Positions 3,181 to 20,365 of a DNA stretch of 64,000 bases are shown in pieces (position 1 is the stretch's first letter; each line of letters begins with the position of its first letter). The stretch spans positions 1 to 64,000 of the forward strand of contig JAEUHE010000177.1 of the NCBI GenBank assembly GCA_016793885.1, read 5' to 3'. The notes under the pieces were generated by a model, which was given only the letters and a program-made list of their open reading frames with translations, ran no database searches and was not told the DNA's origin. The position numbers were made by a program, and so were the translations under genes. This DNA comes from Verrucomicrobiales bacterium (GTDB lineage Bacteria; Verrucomicrobiota; Verrucomicrobiia; Limisphaerales; UBA11320).

Positions 3181-5265
3181 TCACTTCACTTCCAACAGGG
3201 CCAGGTAAGCTTGAGCGGCCGATGGATCGTTCAACGGCAACGTCCCTCGTCGAATCCGGGGCACTGGCTCGCCTTCCAGCACCACTGGATCTGCTTCGGT
3301 CAGCCGACGGGCATAAGCCCAAAAGCTCTCGTCCCCCTCCGATCGCAGCTGCGACCGATTCACCAACCGGAATCGCCCGGTGCTCGCGTGATGAACCCGG
3401 GTCATCATTTCGAGCGTGAGGCGCCCCATGGTATAACGCGGGTTAATTTCCACCACGGGTTTCAGTCGGAGGTCTCCGGCGGAATTCCGATACAAGAACG
3501 CATCGATTCCCAAAGGTCCCCGATAGTCCGCCGCCCTCAACTCAGGCTGGAGTGCGATCCGCACTTCCTCAAAGATCGCCTGCAATCGTCGGGCCCCATC
3601 GCGCAGCGCTCGAAGCGCCATCACCACCTCGGCAGGCGGTCGCCGATCATGATGCGGCGTTGCCCAATTCGCCCGAAATTGACCTCCTGGATCATTCAGT
3701 AAACCTGTATAACCTACTAACCGCAGACCGCTGGCTTCGCTCTCCCACTGCACGGAAAAGTCGATCTCCCGTTCCAGCCAGGGTTCCACCACCAAGCGAC
3801 CGCCCGACTCCAGCACGTTCCCCATCCAGCGGCGCTGACTTTCCAGGACGTCCGGCTCCCACAACCTCATCATCCCCTGCCCCGCCAGACCAAGGGCCTC
3901 TTTCACCACCACCCGGTGATGTCCGGCCGAACGAATCTCAGCGATCGCGGCCAAAGCATCGTTCAGGGTATCGACCGTTCGTCCGACTTCGAACTCCCCG
4001 CACACCCATCCCTCTCCTGACCACCGGCTCAGGTGCCGTCGCAGGAAATCGGCGCTCCAGGCTTTGGAGTATAAAGGAGCTATCCGCTCGGAGAATGAAC
4101 CGGCCGCGGTGCGGGTTTCACCCGTCACTTGAGGAAAGAGCTGAGCCAGGGCCTCCACGCTGTCCGGCCCCCAAGCCCACGGACGCAGCCGCCCCAGCTT
4201 GCGCTCCAGAACCGGACTCCCCGGTCGCAACGAGCGTCCATCCCATTCGACGAATTCCGGGAGGGGGAAGCCGGCTAGCTTGATCTGACTGAGAAACGCA
4301 ACCGACGGCCGTTGAGGCACCAAGACCACGTCATCCAGCCGCGCAAGAAACTGAGGCAGGTTGGCTAGGTCCGCCGCCAAACACTGCTGGGCTTTGACGG
4401 GGGTGAAGGACTTGCCGTGAGCGATGCGTCCTTCGGAAAATGGATTGAACCAAAAGACCGAGGGAGTGCGCCCCTTGGAACGGGAAAAGACATTCAGCTC
4501 ATCGATGAACCGCAGATCGAACCCGGCCGCTTTTCGACCATCGACATTCAGCCGACCGCCTTTCGCACGATTGGGCGAAAGCGGAAACTTCAGCTGCCGA
4601 CAGAATGCTTCCCAGTCGCTGTCGTTCGGATTCTTCCAGCGTCGGAACCATTTCAGTCCGTACGCAACATGCGCAATCTCATCACGGTAGATCCGGTCCA
4701 AAAGTCCGGCTGTTTCCGCATCGCCAACCGCCTGAAACCCCTGAGCGAAGTGGCGGCAAAAGTCCAAATTGGCCTGCTCGAACGTCAAACTGAGCCCGGC
4801 CACGTAATCCATCGGGCTCTCCATGCTGGATACCGAGCGCCAGAAGTAGCCGCTCACCGGCAGCTGGCCAAACTCAATGCCGCATGCCTTCATCCGCCGC
4901 AGATACATGCGGGTATGCTCCTGCTCATCCTTCAAAGTCTGAAACACGCCGCGACGAAAGGCAGCCGGCGCGTCCGGAAACCGGAGCAGGACCAAGGCCA
5001 TCAGCTCAGTGGCCAACAGCTCGTGATTCGCAAAAAAATGAAGCAGCCGCCCACGCTCCTGCTCATGCTCCAGCCGATGCAGGCCAGGAAAATCTCCACC
5101 CCCTCCTCCCTGAGGTTTGAAGCCAAGCCCGGCAGGTCGACCAGGACTCACCGGCGCAACCATCGCGCTACCCGGATTTTCGTCCGTGACTGTCCCAGGG
5201 GTGTCCAGTTTCGCCTCCAAGGTGGTGGCGAACAGAACCTGCTCGGCAAACTCGCGCAGTTCCAT
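3181..5265 (-). CDS. Ferritin-like DUF455 domain fused to an ATP-grasp domain
   Basis: A 694-residue cytoplasmic two-domain protein. Residues about 62-260 form a DUF455 (COG2833) ferritin-like helical bundle. It has a complete di-iron ligand pattern: a helix-1 glutamate (E82 or E87), E114-QE-H117, E163 and E196-IA-H199. Residues about 400-640 resemble ATP-grasp ligases, with VVVKEALGLAGQG around K455, E494 in VVEPWLE, D588 in GIDAFLY and E606-I-N608 in VVEINPR. The start at 5265 is 12 bp after the rtcB stop, and the upstream in-frame extension would run back into rtcB. The two genes are therefore very probably co-transcribed. DUF455 proteins are uncharacterised. The fold is shared with iron-dependent oxygenases such as the tRNA hydroxylase MiaE, and ATP-grasp enzymes join carboxylates to nucleophiles. 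A role in RNA or protein modification is inference. Confidence 0.85.
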   Translation of the reverse strand: MELREFAEQVLFATTLEAKLDTPGTVTDENPGSAMVAPVSPGRPAGLGFKPQGGGGGDFPGLHRLEHEQERGRLLHFFANHELLATELMALVLLRFPDAPAAFRRGVFQTLKDEQEHTRMYLRRMKACGIEFGQLPVSGYFWRSVSSMESPMDYVAGLSLTFEQANLDFCRHFAQGFQAVGDAETAGLLDRIYRDEIAHVAYGLKWFRRWKNPNDSDWEAFCRQLKFPLSPNRAKGGRLNVDGRKAAGFDLRFIDELNVFSRSKGRTPSVFWFNPFSEGRIAHGKSFTPVKAQQCLAADLANLPQFLARLDDVVLVPQRPSVAFLSQIKLAGFPLPEFVEWDGRSLRPGSPVLERKLGRLRPWAWGPDSVEALAQLFPQVTGETRTAAGSFSERIAPLYSKAWSADFLRRHLSRWSGEGWVCGEFEVGRTVDTLNDALAAIAEIRSAGHHRVVVKEALGLAGQGMMRLWEPDVLESQRRWMGNVLESGGRLVVEPWLEREIDFSVQWESEASGLRLVGYTGLLNDPGGQFRANWATPHHDRRPPAEVVMALRALRDGARRLQAIFEEVRIALQPELRAADYRGPLGIDAFLYRNSAGDLRLKPVVEINPRYTMGRLTLEMMTRVHHASTGRFRLVNRSQLRSEGDESFWAYARRLTEADPVVLEGEPVPRIRRGTLPLNDPSAAQAYLALLEVK

Positions 5266-5276
5266 GGCGGGTAGGC

Positions 5277-6671
5277 TCAGTCTTCCGGACGTTCCCCGTG
5301 AGGTGCCATCTTGACCAAGCGAGGGTCGAAGCGCCCGAGCACCTCGACCAAGTCCTGCTGGGCTGCCATCACGCTGTGAATGTCCTTGTAGACTCCCGGC
5401 ACCTCGTCCAGTCCAGCCGAGATCAGGCGCACCCCGCGTTCCTTCAGGACTCGATTCACCTTCTCCCACTCAAAACTCTCAATCGCTTTGGTGCGGCTCA
5501 TGATCCGTCCAGCCCCATGCGAAGCGGATCGCAGGCTCCGGGATTCCCCTTTTCCGCGCACCAGGAAGCCAGGTGTCGCCATCGATCCGGGGATGATCCC
5601 CAGAACTCCCTGCCCCGCCGGCGTGGCGCCCTTGCGATGCACGATGACTTCGCGGTCCACTCCTCCAATGTGGTGCCGTTCCTTCCAGGCGAAGTTATGG
5701 TGGTTCTCCACGTCCAGGAGGACACTCAGGCGCAAATGCTCTGCCAGATGACGATGGATCAACGAATGGTTCGCCGCCGCATACGCGCCCATCAACTCCA
5801 TCGCAGCCCAGTATTCCTGTCCCGCCTCCGAATCCATCGAGAGCCAAGCCAGGTGCTTGTGCTCGCGAGGCAGCTCGGCGTGCTGCTCCATGGCGAGCTT
5901 GCTATAATGATCGCACACCGCGGCCCCCGTGCCACGACTCCCGCTATGGCTCAGCAAGGCCACATACTCCCCGGGCGGAAGCCCGCCCACCGCCTGCTCA
6001 ACGGTGAAGACCCCGAACTCGACAAAATGATTGCCGCTGCCGCTGGTGCCCAACTGAGACCACGCCCGATCCTTGTTCTGCCGGGCGATCGGACTGACCG
6101 TCCAGTCGCGGTCCATGACCTCGTGCTGCCGTCGGTCTTTAAAGGTGGATCCCACGCCAAAACGGGTTTCGACCTCGATCGCCTTGGTCAGCTTCTCGCG
6201 GTGCTTGTCCAGATCGCGCACCGGGAGATCGAGGACTGTCATTTTCATTCGACACGCGATGTCCACCCCGACGGCGTAAGGAATCACCGCGTTCTCCGTG
6301 GCCAGCACACCACCGATCGGCAATCCGTAGCCCACATGAGCGTCCGGCATCAACGCTCCCGCCACCGAGATGGGCAGCTGACAGGCACGCGCAATCTGGT
6401 TGATCGCTTCAGGCTCAAGCCCCTCTCCCCACTGATGCCACTCCGCCTTGGATTCCTGGAGAACCCGATTCGAACGCAGGAGCGACTTGGCAAATTCACC
6501 ACGCAGCGTATCCTTCACGAACTCCGCGGGATTACGAACGACCGCCTCAACCTCGCCCGCCAAAGCGGAGCGATCCAATCCCTTGAGAATGTACTTGGAG
6601 ATAAACTCAATCCCCCGTCGCATCGATTCCCCAGGCGGCACCCCCAATCGGATGAGATCTTGGCTGTTCAT
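5277..6671 (-). CDS. rtcB: RtcB-family RNA ligase
   Basis: A 464-residue RtcB (PF01139) protein. RtcB joins RNA 2',3'-cyclic phosphate or 3'-phosphate ends to 5'-OH ends using GTP and Mn2+. Visible metal and nucleotide motifs are MPDAHVGYGLP (D110, H112), GVDIAC (D137, C140), GSGNHFVEFG (H215), SHSGSRG (H242), ENHHNFAW and the guanylylation motif ASHGAGR (H385). The pattern GVDIACRM differs from the GVDIGCGM of E. coli RtcB, which marks a divergent subfamily. The length is in the usual range. It is the first gene of a two-gene unit with the DUF455/ATP-grasp protein 12 bp downstream. No archease or RtcA homologue is visible nearby. It could serve tRNA or mRNA repair after ribonuclease damage. 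Confidence 0.93.
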   Translation of the reverse strand: MNSQDLIRLGVPPGESMRRGIEFISKYILKGLDRSALAGEVEAVVRNPAEFVKDTLRGEFAKSLLRSNRVLQESKAEWHQWGEGLEPEAINQIARACQLPISVAGALMPDAHVGYGLPIGGVLATENAVIPYAVGVDIACRMKMTVLDLPVRDLDKHREKLTKAIEVETRFGVGSTFKDRRQHEVMDRDWTVSPIARQNKDRAWSQLGTSGSGNHFVEFGVFTVEQAVGGLPPGEYVALLSHSGSRGTGAAVCDHYSKLAMEQHAELPREHKHLAWLSMDSEAGQEYWAAMELMGAYAAANHSLIHRHLAEHLRLSVLLDVENHHNFAWKERHHIGGVDREVIVHRKGATPAGQGVLGIIPGSMATPGFLVRGKGESRSLRSASHGAGRIMSRTKAIESFEWEKVNRVLKERGVRLISAGLDEVPGVYKDIHSVMAAQQDLVEVLGRFDPRLVKMAPHGERPED

Positions 6672-6804
6672 GAATGAAACATCCCTTCGTTCATGGAGGT
6701 AGGATCACGCAACGACACAGGGAGATCAAGGATTCACGCTCACGAGTGAACTGCAATGGAGGATGTCATTACCTCTTCGAGCGAGTTTCTGAACTAGCCA
6801 CCAA

Positions 6805-12195: not shown

Positions 12196-15100
12196 TTAGT
12201 TCCCCACCAGCACGAGTCGGAAGTAGCGAGCCGTCTCAGTTAACTCGATCGAGACCGTCAGGTTACCCTGAGGACCGGCTGCGACAATTTCGTTCCCGAC
12301 GATCTGCCAGGGGGCAGCCCCCGAAAGTTCCGACTTGGACTCGATCCGATACGTCCTGCCCGCGGTCGCAGGCCAGGTCAGGTGCAATTGGGTCCCATCC
12401 AGGGCATAACCCAAACTGGTCCCGCCCACTACCAATAACCGCGCGGTATCACTGCGGACCGTGGCACCGGCATTGGCCACCTCAACGGCGTAAGATCCGG
12501 CATCGGCCGCCTGGATATTGGACAGGGAATAGGTGGCTAGGTTGGCGCCCAAGATCGGCGCTCCATCCCTCAGCCATTGATAGGACAGAGCCCCATCCCC
12601 CTGAGCTACCACCGAGAAGGATACGCTTCCGCCCGCATCCACCGTTTGCGATTGAGGGTGCGTCAGAATGGCCGGTCCCTTGACCACCGCCAGGGTGGAG
12701 GTCGTGCTGTTCAGCGGCACGGCAACCCCGGCGAGGTTGGTGATGGTCACGTAATAGCGGCCAGCGTCGTTGGTCCTGGCGCCCCTGATCGTAAACACGC
12801 AACTGGTGCTGTAGAGGGTGATGTTGGTGATCGAGGTGCTACTCCCCACCTTGCGCCACCGATAGGTCATGGGCAGAGAGCCGGAAACGTGGATCAGGAA
12901 AGTCGCATTGGAACCCACCGCGACCGTCTGCTGGGCAGGGTTCAAGGCCTGAGTGATCGCCGGCCGAACTTTGACCACCAGTCGAGCGGAGGCGCTGATC
13001 AGCGAGGCGACCGAGTCCTCAACCCGCACGGAATAGTCTCCCTCGTCGGCTAACTGAGCAGCCGGCACCACCAGAGAACTTCCCGTGGCACCCGGGATCT
13101 CGCTGCCCCCCATGAGCCACTGATAACGAAGGGGTGGGTTCGCGGAGACCGCGGTGACCGAGAAGGTGGCTGGTTTGCCCGGATCCACAATTTGTAGCTG
13201 CGGCGGCACCAGGATAGTGGGCGGGATCGGCACGGTCAGCCTCGCTACGGCGCTCCGAACGCAACCCGCACCATTGGAAACCAACGCCCGATAGTCTCCA
13301 TTGTGCCAGGGACCGACGTCAGCCAACGTCAGCAGTGCCTGCGTCTCACCCGGCAAAGGGATTCCGTTACGAAGCCACTGATACTCCAGAACGGGACTGC
13401 CCGTCGCACTGACGCTCAGCTGAACTGTGCTACCCACTTGGGCCAACTGATCCGTGGGAGAGCTGACAATGGACGGAGCCGTCAGCAGGCTGGCATTCGA
13501 TCGAGGATCGGTTTGGTCATAGAATTCCTCCTGGTTATTCCGTCCGTCTCCATCGGAATCCAGAAGCGCATCGGCCGGTACAGAGGGGCTCAAGCCGTGA
13601 GCAGTTTCCCAGGCGTCCGGCAGGCCATCGTGGTCGGCATCCAATTCACCAAAGCCAGAAACATTTCCTCGCCCCGGAGTCGGGGTCGCGATCATCCAAC
13701 TCGAAGCCGCTGCACCTGAGTTCAAGGAGCGTCGCACAACGGAATCGCTCCCCGGCCACCGGCCAACGGTTCGGAACTCGTCGATGACTTCTCTAGCTGC
13801 CGGGAGGCTGTCCACCTGATCCACCACAATATCCCGTTCCAAACTGAGCGACTCGACTGCCGATCCTGCCAGTGATCCGGCATAGGGCCCAACCAAGGTA
13901 AGGCCCGAGGGAAGCCCATAGTGAGCGCGGAAACGAGACGCGACTGCTGGTTGAACGGACGGATCGAAAGGTACGAGCAGCAGGTAGCCACCCGCTGGAA
14001 TTTCAAGTTCAACCGGGAACTCATAGCTCACCCCGCCTGCTAACCTCCATCTGAGGGCGGGGTTGGACGAGTTGGTAAAGGTAACGGGCTGAGCGGTCAG
14101 GTTGTGCAGCTCAATAAATTCCAAGGAGGAGTCCGACAAGCCGTCGGCTATCGGCGAGGGGCGGAACTCGTGAATGACCACTGGACCCACGCGAGCGCCC
14201 GAGTTGGCCGATCCCGGCGTCGGATCCCGCAACGCCACCAGCTCCGAACCCGCACATCCGGGGACGAATCCAAAGGCGGTGTTGGCAGAGCCGGCTCCGT
14301 ACGAGACCTGCGCTTGCCGTCCCGTCAATCGCCCGGAGGCATCAGCCTCGCTCAGAACCACTCTTTCACCCCGGGCCGAGAGGCTAAACTGCCTCAGCAA
14401 CCCCAAGGCACCCGCCACTCCAAAGTCCTCGTCTCGCACCACCAAATAGCCTCGGGCTGGAATGGATTTGGGAACCGCCAATCGGAGCTTCTGCGGCAGA
14501 GCCGGATCGTCGCTCAGAAACCAAGATGAGATGTCGGCAACGAGATTTCCTGGATTGTGAAGCTCGATGAAGTCCTGCTGCCCCGCGGGGGCGCTAGCCA
14601 GAATCTCATTGATTCGGACGTTCTCGATCGGCAGCCAGTTCATCGTTCCGGGGGAGGCCGAATCGGTGAAGTCCTTAATGTCAGAGGCACCCTCCGGCCA
14701 CCGGCCCTGTGACACACCAGCCACCTGTGTTCCGAAGCTCAGCTCGTCAATCACGCTGACCAATAACCCCTCGGAGGAAACCTCATACAGGCGCAGATAG
14801 TCGCCATCGGAATCCAACTGAAACGCCAGGTGGTCCGCGCCTTGATGGCGTTGTCCATCTGCCACCAGCTTCAGATAGCCCGATCCCGCAATGAAGCTCA
14901 GGGGCTCAAACCGCCCGGCTGTCAGGGAAGCGGCCTGGGAGGGATCATCGAGGATTCCCACTTGGTCCAGTGCGACTGGCAAGGCCGAGCTATTGCGGAG
15001 TTCCACCCAATCATTACCCGAGGCCGGATTGGCCATCCATTCGTTGATGGACAAGCCAGCAACCGACCCGACGGTGGCCGCGCCCGAGTTGGCGGCGCCC

Positions 15101-18100
15101 CGCGTAGGCATGGCCATGAGCTTCCACGGCCCGCCAGGCCCGCCGACCACACCGATCGATTGGTCGGGTATTTGAGGACCGTAGCTCTGACGCAACAGAC
15201 CGCCCGCGGGGCTGCGCAAGGTCAGAGCCGCCCCCTCACCAGGCAAGCTGAACCCTGCATCGATGAGACCGCTCGCCGATGTTGACGCGGGGATACCTCG
15301 ATCGCACAGCACGACTAAGTAGCCATTCGCCGGGATGCTGATCCCGGAGGGGAAAACAAACGTGCCGTCGGCCCCATGATTCAGCTCCAGTCGATAGCCG
15401 TTGAGCGAAATGACGGTGGTTCCCGGATTGTGAAGTTCGACGAAATCCGCGAAGCCGCTCGCGGGGGTCAAACGTTCGAACGTAGACCGGGCCATGATCT
15501 CATTGAACCGAGGGCCTTGGTAAACCACAGGACCGGCGTTGGGGAGGCCCGGCGTGGAGTTGCCATCGAAGTTAAAGCGCGAAGGGGCACCATCCGGGTA
15601 TCTTCCAAAGGAAACCCCTTCCGCCTCCTGACCATAGGCCTCGCTCTGAATCTGCTCCCCTCCGGGGGCAAACAGCCGCAGCTCCGGGCCCTCGGCGGGA
15701 AGTTTGAGTCCCAGATGCCGAGGGCCGGCCTTTCCATCGGCCACCAATTCTACAAACCCTTGGGGAGCCACGAACGCCGGAAAGCCATACGTTGCGGAAG
15801 CATTGGCCGTCCGAACCACGTAGCCTTCAAGCCGGGCTGGCAAGGAGGCATGGGCGTTGAAAAACTCGACCCAATCCTCCTGCCCCGGAGCCGGATTGGC
15901 CAGGATCTCGTTCATCTGCAACGCCGAGAGCGGAGCGAGGTCGATCGCGACATTCACAGCTCCGGGCGTGGGCTGAGTCAGGATCCACCCCGAACCATCG
16001 AGGCCGATGGATCGATCCGGAAGCTGATTGCCGAAACTAACGGTCGACACCCGATTCGATTGGGAGTCTTCAAGGAAGAGTGAGTCCCCTTCCCGATCCA
16101 AACCAAATTGCGCATGGAGCCCGGAGTTCACGGCCGAATCCATCCAAATCACGAGATAGCCTCCGGCAGCAATCTGCGTCCCCGCCGGGAAGACGAAGCG
16201 CTGTCCGGCGCCACGTCCCACCAAACTCCACCTGGCGAGGTCGACCGTTGCGGCACCGGTGTTGTGAAGTTCCACAAAGTCCGGAGCCGTCCCTTCATGA
16301 ACGATTCCGCCCGCATTGTCAGCGAGCACCTCGTGGATCCGCACCTCCCGCTGCAGGGAAGGACCGGGTTGCCCCAGGGATCCGCCACTGACGGCACGCG
16401 CAGTCCAATTCGCTGGATCATTCCCATTGCGCAAGGGATCGATGATCTCCAATGAGGCGCCGGTTCCATCCGCCAGAACGGGCCACCCCGCTTCATCATC
16501 ATAGTCAACCACGACCCCGAAACTGCCATCAGGAGAGGAAACACCCAGTCGCTCCCCCCCATTGGAAAGGCTCCCGTCAAACGTTCCGGCCATTCGCGCG
16601 CCCGGATAGCGAATTTTCCACGCGTTGGTATCGACGCCTGAAGCCACCACGAGATAGGCGCCGGGAGCGATGCGAGTGCCCGGCACGAACGTGAAGCTCA
16701 CGCCCTCCATCGACCACCCCGTCAAGTCGAGATCCTGCGCTCCCACATTCTGGAACTCCACATACTCGTAGGCATCGCCGCCGGGAGGGTTATACATGAT
16801 CTCCGTAAGACGGAGCGGCGACTCGAACGAACCCGATTCGAACTGAGCCTCATTGAGCGCGCTCCAATTGGTGCCATTCAAGGTCCGCGCCTTGACCAAG
16901 ACACGACTGCTGATCAGCGGCGGGTTCAGCTCCTGATACTCGCGCGCCGAGGAGGACACTTCCCCGGACCGGAATACTCTCGGATCATTTCCATCCAGAG
17001 TGAAATACACCGTGCCCGCCCCCGGGTTGGTCATCGTAAGCGCATACCCAAACGGGACCCGACCGCCATGCTGCCGGAAGATGGGCGGAGTAGCGTTAGT
17101 GGGATAGAGTCCCCCACGGGCAAACGATCGGAAGACGTTCGAGGACCGCAGAGGGAAATAGCGAGTGGTGTTCCCAGAGGAGTTGGTCAGAAAGAGCAGC
17201 GACTGCAGTTCGCGCAGCCACTCGACGTTGCGGGTGTAGGGCTGGCCCGGACGCGCCACATCTCCCCATCGCGCCGACTCACAAACGATCGCCGGATCCA
17301 CCTGGTCGATCACTTGCATGTAAAGCGCCGCCGGCCGGTTCCACTCCGGGTGCGCCGGATCCCATTCCCGATGCAGGGGATCCACGTAAAAGATTCCGTC
17401 GTTAAAGAAGTGCTTGTGCACCCGGTCCGCGAATCGGAGCCGAAACTCCGGACTGTTGCGGAGCGACGCCAAAATCCCACTACCGGCTCCCGTATTGCTG
17501 ATAGCCAGGCGATCTTCCGTCACACTTTTCAGGACATGCTCCGCATCCCAGGAAATGAATCGCCATCCCGGCGCACCGGGCTTGCGACTGCGAACCGCAT
17601 ACCAATTGTGATGATCCCAGTCGTCGTTACCTACCCAAATGTTCACCATCATGTAGTCGATAAACCAATCGAGATCGAGATGGGAGATCGCGGCCACATA
17701 GTTGGTGATGTTCGCCATCGGTTTCCCGACCGCCGACAGCATCTGGGAGTAGGCCGCCCCGGAGCCTGAGATCACAGTTCCGCTGGTGTGCTTGATGATG
17801 TCGTAGTCCAACGGATCGCCACCAAAATGGCTGGCTGCCCATTTTTCCTCAGGACGCTCATGCAGATTCTTCATGCCCCAATAGAGGCCATTGATGTACA
17901 CATGCACGAACCGCCCTCGGGGCGGTTGCGCGGTCGTGCGGATCATGAGTTCGTTGACGAACTGCTCGCGGGCATACTGTCCTCGATACCGCTGATCGTC
18001 CGCCGTCATGTGGTTCCACACCATGTTCAAGCCCGAATCAATGATGAGAGTGTCGAATTCATCAACGGGCGAACCCTCATACAAGGGAAACCTCAGCTTC

Positions 18101-19905
18101 TTATTGCCGTAATCACCACTGAAGATCAACCGCATGGAAAGATTCTTGTCCTTCCAGTCGGAACCCGAATCGTCGGGGCTGCTGCCCCCCTGGATCTCGA
18201 ATCCCGCATCCAAGGCAAACCCAGGAGTCCCATCAGGAAAGATCATCTCCACGTGGACCGGCTGACGGTTCTTCGAATCCCGGCGGACGTAGACACCCTG
18301 GGCGGGTTCAAAGACCAGCTTTTCATCGGTGACCATGGAGAGGGTGGGAAGCTCCTTGAGGCCTTGGAGGATCAGGGGACGGTAGACCGGATTGGTGGTC
18401 ACACGTGGGTCCATGGCATAGTCGCCCGAAGTGCTGTTCTTTCCGGGCGACACCCACGTGGCGGGAAAGCCCGCGGGAACAGCCGGTTGACTCAAGACCA
18501 TCTCGGGAAAAATATAGGTGAGGGTGGTCACCGTCGAAGGGAGCAACCCCGGCGCAAACGCTTGAGCGCGGATGGTAACCACCCCCCGAGCCGGAGTGCC
18601 CTCCACCGGAATGGCCCCAGAATAGAGAAAGCTGTTTCGCGTGGGAACACTTCCATCAAGAGTGTAGTAGATGGTCACATGCGGCGTCTCCGTTCCCAAC
18701 TGCAACACGAAGGGCCGCTCAAAGAATCCGCTCGCCACCGACGGACTGGGCGGTTGCACCACTCCACTATACGTTTTTCCGACCGAATTAGCTGCTCCCG
18801 GGGTGGCGGTCGCCAAATAGGCGAAGGTATCCGAGGCGATCCTCCCATAGGCCACATCCCCACGTTGAGAAGGATACTCCACGAGTAGGTCTGCGGGAAT
18901 CGCCGGCAAGGATGGCCGATAGAGCCCGAGTTGACCTCCGCCGGCGGCTAAACGGAAATTGGCGTGCAAGCGCGCCCCCGCCGTCGTGGCCCGCCGATCC
19001 TTTCCTGAAGCGAACACGACCAAGTGCTGCCCCGGGCTTAAGTCGATAGCGGGAAAGACCCATTTAAAGGGATCAGCCAGATCGTCGGTCAACCCCCATC
19101 CCAACAGACTAACCGAGGCGTTCCCCTCATTGACGATCTCCAGCCAGTCTTCTGCCGCAGCATCTTCATCCAGCAGCCCATTCAGGTTGTCGGCCATGAA
19201 CTCATTGAGTTTCACCTTCGCCTCGCTCGACTGCGGTGACACGGTGTAAGTCCAGCCGCTGCTGGCCAGGGGATTTTGGGCAGGGGAAAGATCCCTGATC
19301 CCATTTTCGGCTACCCAGGCCAAAGTCGCCGTTCCAGGTCCCAGCGGGCCAAATTGGAATCGATAGGGGCCCGCGCCCGATCCTGTGACTTCCCGGGCGG
19401 CGACGCCATTCACCAACAGATCAGCCGCATCAACCCCCTGCACTTCCTCGGTAAACCAGAGATCAAGAGAGGCCAACCCGGGCACAACGGCGCCTGGCAG
19501 CGGCAGGGAACGCAACACCCCCGGAGAGACGGCATCCGCCAGCACGTAGGACCACACGCTACCGGCAGCGGTCTCGTCGAGTCGATTCCCCGAAAGATCG
19601 GTCACCGTGTGGTTGATATCCCAACGAACACCGACCGCCCCCGCCAAGGGTTGCCCAAAGTAAAAAGTCCAAGTGTTGCTGGCGCCAGAAACACTTTGAG
19701 CCGGCGCATTGTTAATGAGAAAATCACCCGCTTGGAGTCCGGCTACCGGCTCGGTGAACACCACCTTGACCTGATCAAGCAGGGATACAGCGGAGCCTGC
19801 CGGCGGTTCGATGGAAAGAATCCGCGGCGGCTCGATGTCGGCGGCATCCAGGTGGAAGGAGGACAGCAGCAGGAGAAGACTGCGAAAGAAAAATCGTGCA
19901 CTCAT
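12196..19905 (-). CDS. Giant surface protein: Big/LTD/CotH kinase-like/LTD repeats/Ig domains
   Basis: A 2569-residue exported protein. The start at 19905 (MSARFFFRSLLLLLSSFHLDA) gives a clean signal peptide. In order there are two Big_5-like domains (about 20-205), a lamin-tail domain (about 225-300), and a chitobiase/FN3-like segment (about 390-450, YYTLDGSVPTRNS). A CotH region follows (about 555-870, with GFEIQGGSSPDDSG, LRLIFSGDYG-like text, YINGLYWGMKNLHERPE and FISWDAEHVLKS). Seven further lamin-tail domains start near residues 1035, 1185, 1327, 1468, 1620, 1765 and 1907 and share I-x-E-ILA-x-P...DWVEL-x-N. Next come an EF-hand-like calcium motif (DADHDGLPDAWE, SDGDGRNNQEEF, about 2080-2135), four Ig-like domains (YQWLRNG type) and a short C-terminal domain. 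CotH in spore coats is an atypical protein kinase. Here it probably acts on extracellular material or the protein itself, which is inference. Confidence 0.9.
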   Translation of the reverse strand: MSARFFFRSLLLLLSSFHLDAADIEPPRILSIEPPAGSAVSLLDQVKVVFTEPVAGLQAGDFLINNAPAQSVSGASNTWTFYFGQPLAGAVGVRWDINHTVTDLSGNRLDETAAGSVWSYVLADAVSPGVLRSLPLPGAVVPGLASLDLWFTEEVQGVDAADLLVNGVAAREVTGSGAGPYRFQFGPLGPGTATLAWVAENGIRDLSPAQNPLASSGWTYTVSPQSSEAKVKLNEFMADNLNGLLDEDAAAEDWLEIVNEGNASVSLLGWGLTDDLADPFKWVFPAIDLSPGQHLVVFASGKDRRATTAGARLHANFRLAAGGGQLGLYRPSLPAIPADLLVEYPSQRGDVAYGRIASDTFAYLATATPGAANSVGKTYSGVVQPPSPSVASGFFERPFVLQLGTETPHVTIYYTLDGSVPTRNSFLYSGAIPVEGTPARGVVTIRAQAFAPGLLPSTVTTLTYIFPEMVLSQPAVPAGFPATWVSPGKNSTSGDYAMDPRVTTNPVYRPLILQGLKELPTLSMVTDEKLVFEPAQGVYVRRDSKNRQPVHVEMIFPDGTPGFALDAGFEIQGGSSPDDSGSDWKDKNLSMRLIFSGDYGNKKLRFPLYEGSPVDEFDTLIIDSGLNMVWNHMTADDQRYRGQYAREQFVNELMIRTTAQPPRGRFVHVYINGLYWGMKNLHERPEEKWAASHFGGDPLDYDIIKHTSGTVISGSGAAYSQMLSAVGKPMANITNYVAAISHLDLDWFIDYMMVNIWVGNDDWDHHNWYAVRSRKPGAPGWRFISWDAEHVLKSVTEDRLAISNTGAGSGILASLRNSPEFRLRFADRVHKHFFNDGIFYVDPLHREWDPAHPEWNRPAALYMQVIDQVDPAIVCESARWGDVARPGQPYTRNVEWLRELQSLLFLTNSSGNTTRYFPLRSSNVFRSFARGGLYPTNATPPIFRQHGGRVPFGYALTMTNPGAGTVYFTLDGNDPRVFRSGEVSSSAREYQELNPPLISSRVLVKARTLNGTNWSALNEAQFESGSFESPLRLTEIMYNPPGGDAYEYVEFQNVGAQDLDLTGWSMEGVSFTFVPGTRIAPGAYLVVASGVDTNAWKIRYPGARMAGTFDGSLSNGGERLGVSSPDGSFGVVVDYDDEAGWPVLADGTGASLEIIDPLRNGNDPANWTARAVSGGSLGQPGPSLQREVRIHEVLADNAGGIVHEGTAPDFVELHNTGAATVDLARWSLVGRGAGQRFVFPAGTQIAAGGYLVIWMDSAVNSGLHAQFGLDREGDSLFLEDSQSNRVSTVSFGNQLPDRSIGLDGSGWILTQPTPGAVNVAIDLAPLSALQMNEILANPAPGQEDWVEFFNAHASLPARLEGYVVRTANASATYGFPAFVAPQGFVELVADGKAGPRHLGLKLPAEGPELRLFAPGGEQIQSEAYGQEAEGVSFGRYPDGAPSRFNFDGNSTPGLPNAGPVVYQGPRFNEIMARSTFERLTPASGFADFVELHNPGTTVISLNGYRLELNHGADGTFVFPSGISIPANGYLVVLCDRGIPASTSASGLIDAGFSLPGEGAALTLRSPAGGLLRQSYGPQIPDQSIGVVGGPGGPWKLMAMPTRGAANSGAATVGSVAGLSINEWMANPASGNDWVELRNSSALPVALDQVGILDDPSQAASLTAGRFEPLSFIAGSGYLKLVADGQRHQGADHLAFQLDSDGDYLRLYEVSSEGLLVSVIDELSFGTQVAGVSQGRWPEGASDIKDFTDSASPGTMNWLPIENVRINEILASAPAGQQDFIELHNPGNLVADISSWFLSDDPALPQKLRLAVPKSIPARGYLVVRDEDFGVAGALGLLRQFSLSARGERVVLSEADASGRLTGRQAQVSYGAGSANTAFGFVPGCAGSELVALRDPTPGSANSGARVGPVVIHEFRPSPIADGLSDSSLEFIELHNLTAQPVTFTNSSNPALRWRLAGGVSYEFPVELEIPAGGYLLLVPFDPSVQPAVASRFRAHYGLPSGLTLVGPYAGSLAGSAVESLSLERDIVVDQVDSLPAAREVIDEFRTVGRWPGSDSVVRRSLNSGAAASSWMIATPTPGRGNVSGFGELDADHDGLPDAWETAHGLSPSVPADALLDSDGDGRNNQEEFYDQTDPRSNASLLTAPSIVSSPTDQLAQVGSTVQLSVSATGSPVLEYQWLRNGIPLPGETQALLTLADVGPWHNGDYRALVSNGAGCVRSAVARLTVPIPPTILVPPQLQIVDPGKPATFSVTAVSANPPLRYQWLMGGSEIPGATGSSLVVPAAQLADEGDYSVRVEDSVASLISASARLVVKVRPAITQALNPAQQTVAVGSNATFLIHVSGSLPMTYRWRKVGSSTSITNITLYSTSCVFTIRGARTNDAGRYYVTITNLAGVAVPLNSTTSTLAVVKGPAILTHPQSQTVDAGGSVSFSVVAQGDGALSYQWLRDGAPILGANLATYSLSNIQAADAGSYAVEVANAGATVRSDTARLLVVGGTSLGYALDGTQLHLTWPATAGRTYRIESKSELSGAAPWQIVGNEIVAAGPQGNLTVSIELTETARYFRLVLVGN

Positions 19906-20365
19906 AACGGATAACGAGGGATGCCGATAGGTTTTTGGGTTCGCAGTCATCTTAGCCCGATCTTGGCTCCTGAAGCAATTTCATTCGCGACGGGCCAACC
20001 TTCCGATTCCAAGGGCTTCCGGTGTCTACCCCTCATCCCCATTGGATCGGCGCAACCGTGAGAGGACTATAGCCCCGCAAAGTGGTGATTCCTACCTCTT
20101 CGTGGACACGAGGTGACATTGGCAACCCTAGACAGGTAGGGAGAGACTAAGGGCTAAAGATGATAACCCTCTGCCGCTTTCCCGTTTCCCCGGAGGGGCC
20201 TCCCCCCTACGCCGGAAGGACAAAAGCGGCACCAAAGTGCACGCACTCCAAAACGCTTTGCGACGACCATGCCCTTCGTGCTACCACCGCCGTTTCGCCA
20301 TCCGTTTTCTTTCTTGCCGAATCAGGAGAGGGTTCAGTAGCTTCTGTAGGTCGCTTGGGGCGAAT
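19906..20365. other. Intergenic region upstream of the giant CotH gene and the tRNA
   Basis: This gap of about 460 bp holds the minus-strand promoter region of the CotH gene and the plus-strand promoter region of the tRNA. No repeat of families A-D, credible coding sequence or clear promoter was recognised. Confidence 0.4.

Follow-up and report, generated by a model that had tools for sequence, protein, structure and literature searches.

A gene for an RtcB-family RNA ligase and a gene that fuses a ferritin-like DUF455 domain to an ATP-grasp ligase domain stand side by side in a 64,000-nucleotide stretch of Verrucomicrobiales DNA, which was analysed as a whole and is called the window here (Table 1). 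The first-pass annotation coupled the two genes into a pathway of RNA repair or modification, and the locus raises the question of whether the pair is a functional one and, if it is not, what the fusion protein does. Both genes are intact and share the minus strand, as that annotation described, although the gap between them measures 11 bp and not 12. The ATG of the fusion gene is at 5265, and the open frame extends further upstream to 5469, within rtcB. The window belongs to a metagenome assembly of Verrucomicrobia type, and its nearest relatives carry the names Verrucomicrobia, Limisphaerales or Pedosphaera. Two long plus-strand ORFs (window 4369-5271 and 5190-6674) lie opposite the genes and are open in relatives too; in all likelihood they merely reflect the high-GC codon usage of the coding strand. 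Elsewhere, positions 12196-19950 of the minus strand hold a 2584-aa ORF for an apparent multi-domain surface or secreted protein.

Table 1. Positions of the two genes and of the fusion's domains in the window
Feature	Position	Strand	Basis
DUF455 / ATP-grasp fusion gene, 694 aa	3181..5265	-	Homologues match near full length in 80 loci
Ferritin-like DUF455 domain, N-terminal, residues 1-262	4480..5265	-	Pfam, ligand invariance, fold
Pre-ATP-grasp + ATP-grasp ligase domain, C-terminal, residues 263-694	3184..4479	-	Fold match
RtcB-family RNA ligase, 464 aa; adjacency judged incidental	5277..6671	-	Pfam and motifs

RtcB and its neighbourhood

The rtcB product matches the Pfam RtcB family (PF01139) at 1.6e-86 and, when aligned to PH1602, retains the metal and nucleophile motifs GVDIAC, GNHF, SHSGSRG, NHHN and SHGAGR. 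Given two intact genes on the same strand and 11 bp apart, it could be supposed that they are co-transcribed and that their products act on the same RNA in a module of repair or modification. However, this is very improbable for three reasons: first, the adjacency is confined to the window genome, rtcB being absent beside the fusion in all 80 other loci (74 of which extend at least 1.4 kb upstream and 42 at least 5 kb on both sides) and in 19 further regions, and the fusion being absent beside all 24 close rtcB orthologues. Second, in each of the eight other sampled genomes that hold both genes they lie on different contigs, and their co-occurrence within the order is 8 against 6.4 expected (p = 0.21); the class-wide signal (9 against 3.2 expected, p = 0.001) is gone within the order and co-occurrence therefore follows lineage. 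Third, this type of rtcB adjoins rtcA in two or three relatives and a confirmed rtcR in one, which indicates that the RtcB subtype also serves classical RNA-repair operons.

These rtcA neighbours lie beside the orthologues in L120, L121 and L126 (genomes G116, G181 and G167), with rtcA confirmed by Pfam in L120 and L121; a nearby rtcR is confirmed by Pfam in L120 and recognised by similarity in L121 and L126. In the window itself rtcB is flanked by genes for a glycosyltransferase and a PDZ/thioredoxin-like protein, with no linkage to rtcA or rtcR. In the window genome neither an archease nor any RtcA scoring above the cut-off was found; further rtcB sequences occur on two other contigs, a canonical gene on one and a partial copy on the other. 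In summary, the tabulation of neighbours that the first-pass annotation had put forward as a check of its pairing returned the background level, with no adjacency in any relative. The partnership was rejected, given that neither the neighbourhood in both directions nor co-occurrence supports it, and rtcB is best read as a chance neighbour of the fusion in the window genome.

The two halves of the fusion protein

The N-terminal half is recognised by sequence, with DUF455 (PF04305) spanning residues 39-254 (1e-47; 163.2 bits against a Pfam cut-off of 34.3), and no Pfam family scores above threshold in the rest of the protein. An intact di-iron ligand set had been claimed for this half, and the claim holds: E82, E114, H117, E163, E196 and H199 are invariant across 43 homologues, are also kept in stand-alone DUF455 proteins of Geobacillus, Azospirillum and Sinorhizobium and, in a profile alignment to the di-iron bacterioferritin 1nf4, fall on E, E/H, E and E/H respectively. 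Of the two residues that had been offered as the ligand on helix 1, E82 is the better supported because E87 is merely near-invariant once the stand-alone proteins are included. Four helices (68-95, 101-127, 151-179 and 183-210) form a four-helix bundle with the E/ExxH/E/ExxH pattern of ferritin-like di-iron proteins, and the N half, modelled separately, adopts a ferritin-like fold whose scores are tied (Z 14-15) between aldehyde-deformylating oxygenases, Dps/bacterioferritins and a MiaE-type protein. The literature searched yielded no function for DUF455, several of the matches concerning other DUFs such as DUF4551.

Given that the domain scores as highly against the folds of bacterioferritin and Dps as against those of the oxygenases, that a peroxiredoxin gene immediately precedes the stand-alone DUF455 gene in Sinorhizobium and Sphingomonas, and that the ligase persists in some relatives without DUF455, the domain might be an iron-storage, peroxidase-like or purely structural module, leaving the ligase alone catalytic. 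This is quite unlikely: the ligand set is fully invariant, and DUF455 is the better-conserved half of the protein (mean identity 69%, against 50% for the ligase half), which argues against a passive role.

The C-terminal half is identified by its predicted structure. An AlphaFold2 model of the fusion built on the 43-sequence alignment (pLDDT 92, pTM 0.89) has an ATP-grasp fold that begins at about residue 263, and its best fold match is PGM1 (3wvr_A; Z 27.6, rmsd 3.2, 367 residues aligned, model residues 268-694), which covers the pre-ATP-grasp and ATP-grasp parts alike. A Streptomyces peptide ligase (Z 26.0), BesA (8yi6; Z 23.6) and SAOUHSC_02373 (7r8q; Z 23.4) follow, with a clear step down to the PurK tier of purine-pathway enzymes at Z 19 or less, and Foldseek gives the same top group. 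Z scores of 15-28 to many ATP-grasp enzymes, together with a nucleotide lysine and an E-x-N metal site, place this half in the ATP-grasp superfamily. By sequence the pre-ATP-grasp domain goes unrecognised (PreAtp-grasp 15.6 bits, under the cut-off of 27.5), and a search of solved structures gave weak matches only. K455, E494, D588, E606 and N608, on which the first-pass annotation had based its ATP-grasp-like domain, are invariant, as are K401 and R610; the model bears out that fold, and the set of nucleotide and Mg residues is complete. No RNA-binding domain was found in the fusion protein.

The fusion is common in the order, with a match in 75 of 196 sampled genomes (a few being weak, ferritin-only matches), and among 289 genomes of the phylum the 14 with a strong DUF455 match are exactly the 14 with a strong ligase match, always in one ORF; the two domains are thus fused in almost every carrier. 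Copies with the N half only (G410, G474) or the ligase only (G551) were discarded as contig-edge truncations. No paper on a ferritin-like/ATP-grasp fusion was found in the literature searched, and the fusion combines known kinds of enzyme in a new domain architecture that is real, widespread and undescribed. No neighbour is conserved beyond lineage synteny, and the fusion therefore probably works alone. Close relatives of the fusion also occur in public MAGs labelled Akkermansia muciniphila, Klebsiella pneumoniae or Proteobacteria (L046, L056, L057, L042), records that are probably mislabelled. Among class-level genomes (family f29), L159 and similar loci encode proteins of about 430-600 aa with a weak DUF455 match. 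In L159 that match is close to the C-terminal end, and another ferritin match, also weak, precedes it; these loci may encode tandem ferritin-like proteins, a type separate from the fusion.

The fold matches raise the possibility that the fusion is a small-molecule enzyme unrelated to RNA, in which the di-iron domain would oxidise an amino acid, an amine or a fatty-acid-like substrate and the ligase would make a dipeptide or amide. The closest folds of the ligase half are natural-product and amino-acid ligases and those of the N half are aldehyde-deformylating oxygenases, neither an RNA-binding domain nor a conserved RNA-modification neighbour accompanies the fusion, and the logic of an iron oxygenase with an ATP-grasp enzyme has a precedent in E-64 biosynthesis (PMC12568646). 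Nevertheless, such a role is somewhat unlikely, given that the fusion lies outside biosynthetic clusters as a lone gene across many families and that a second miaA gene, found beside ligase relatives that lack DUF455, would be left unexplained.

Ligase-only relatives and a second miaA

Five genomes of the order encode the ligase without DUF455. In these proteins a short N-terminal stretch is followed directly by the ligase, and in L233 this stretch is clearly the start of the fusion (MELRDLAEPVLFATTLDDKLQSPA); the joining of an N-terminal remnant straight to the ligase indicates that the DUF455 domain was deleted. The five proteins form a single clade nested inside the fusions (support 0.99) and keep every ATP-grasp residue. 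In four of the five genomes the next gene, 2-13 bp downstream of the ligase, is miaA, which encodes the tRNA A37 dimethylallyltransferase; it matches Pfam IPPT in all four and TIGR00174 at about 214-220 bits in the two tested, and the other flanks of the ligase-miaA pair are unrelated among the four genomes. Beside the fusion itself no miaA was found in about 100 loci.

Of 20 genomes scanned for miaA, the five ligase-only ones each have two copies; of the other 15, 14 have a single copy and one has none (Fisher p = 6e-5, a statistic that ignores shared ancestry); given that the five genomes fall in one ligase clade, the miaA link represents one evolutionary event. The second miaAs form a tight clade, with 74-87% mutual identity and about 38% identity to canonical miaAs, but the canonical miaAs of the ligase-only genomes are scattered, and the module of ligase and second miaA therefore appears to travel together. 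In G469 the second miaA is on another contig than the ligase, where the two genes immediately before it are very large and, on visual inspection, resemble defence-associated proteins of the DUF1156/DUF499 type (L267, 449-8041). That the second miaA stems from contamination is unlikely, each ligase-only contig best matching its own genome by tetranucleotide usage, which speaks against a single contaminant common to all; the argument is weakest for G469, whose second-miaA contig has its best match in a genome other than its own. Among viral contigs, neither the ligase nor the second miaA has a relative.

Outside the phylum, Bacteroidales also possess a ligase homologue without DUF455. Among the carriers of this homologue, one strain of B. 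finegoldii has two miaAs in its annotation and a Prevotella record gives two miaA matches; a small tree appears to place the second Verrucomicrobial miaA with the kdsA-linked miaA of Bacteroidales. This is a loose parallel, and the two miaAs there may be ancestral.

A candidate reaction and known systems

With moderate confidence, and from sequence and structural model, the fusion is proposed to be a self-contained two-step enzyme, an oxidase followed by a ligase, with N6-prenyl-adenosine as a possible substrate and RtcB as a chance neighbour. In the first step the di-iron DUF455 domain would use oxygen to oxidise or hydroxylate the substrate; in the second, to judge from fold and residues, the PGM1/BesA-type ATP-grasp domain would activate a carboxylate as an acyl-phosphate and link it to an amine or hydroxyl, the iron domain thereby preparing the group that the ligase conjugates. 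The substrate may, more tentatively, be N6-isopentenyl-adenosine, either at tRNA A37 or as a nucleotide, with DUF455 adding a hydroxyl to the prenyl group in the manner of MiaE. For the clade without DUF455, the additional MiaA could instead take HMBPP as donor and transfer a prenyl group that is already hydroxylated, which would make the hydroxylase unnecessary, and it is this pattern of DUF455 loss and a second miaA that recommends N6-prenyl-adenosine as the candidate to consider first. No hydroxylase of tRNA-bound isopentenyl-adenosine other than MiaE is known, some bacterial isopentenyltransferases such as adenylate IPTs use HMBPP as their donor, and a tRNA IPT that transfers the hydroxylated chain directly has been proposed (PMC8234997; PMC12066119). 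From the RNA role first modelled on MiaE, a link to prenyl-adenosine survives, indirectly and through the second miaA, but RNA repair does not.

This raises the further possibility, bold and rather unlikely, that the fusion makes a new hypermodified nucleoside: DUF455 would hydroxylate N6-isopentenyl-adenosine at tRNA A37, the ATP-grasp domain would acylate the hydroxyl, for example with an amino acid, and in one clade a second MiaA, attaching a prenyl group hydroxylated beforehand, would have taken the place of the oxygen-dependent half. The presence of a second MiaA where the iron domain is missing provides a concrete substrate hypothesis for both halves and bears on a question raised in the literature, namely how organisms that lack miaE come to have zeatin-type nucleosides in their tRNA (PMC8234997).

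Comparison with known systems relates each half to different enzymes. MiaE, the tRNA (ms2io6A37) hydroxylase, shares the ferritin-like di-iron fold with the DUF455 half (MiaE-type chain 8fhc, Z 14.1) but lacks a ligase domain, and the fusion protein does not match the MiaE Pfam family even at E 1; a Sinorhizobium DUF455 protein scores a sub-threshold 0.0036 against it. Aldehyde-deformylating oxygenases and bacterioferritins give the N half its highest fold scores (Z about 15), although identity is low (about 9-20%), the scores are tied and the context is not shared. The stand-alone DUF455 proteins (PF04305; 275-377 aa) of Proteobacteria and Geobacillus belong to the same family and have the same six metal ligands but occur unfused, some being encoded beside a peroxiredoxin (L168, 3267-4579, and L171, 3342-4618, in Sinorhizobium and Sphingomonas).

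For the ligase half, a 402-aa hypothetical protein of Bacteroidales (WP_122246558) is a full-length relative (hhalign E 4e-26) that shares the FNP...E and VEIN.RYTMG-type motifs; unlike the fusion it has no DUF455 domain, and unlike the four ligase-only loci it is not beside miaA. PGM1 (the pheganomycin peptide ligase, 3wvr/3wvq), BesA (8yi6), 8ynd and SAOUHSC_02373 (7r8q) are pre-ATP-grasp/ATP-grasp amino-acid and peptide ligases. The fusion differs from this group in its attached di-iron domain, its position outside a biosynthetic cluster, an identity of only 14-17% and a PreAtp-grasp score under the Pfam cut-off; nevertheless, its entire C-terminal half aligns with these ligases (Z 23-28, about 340-367 residues) and, as in them, the Lys, Glu, Asp and E-x-N sites are intact.
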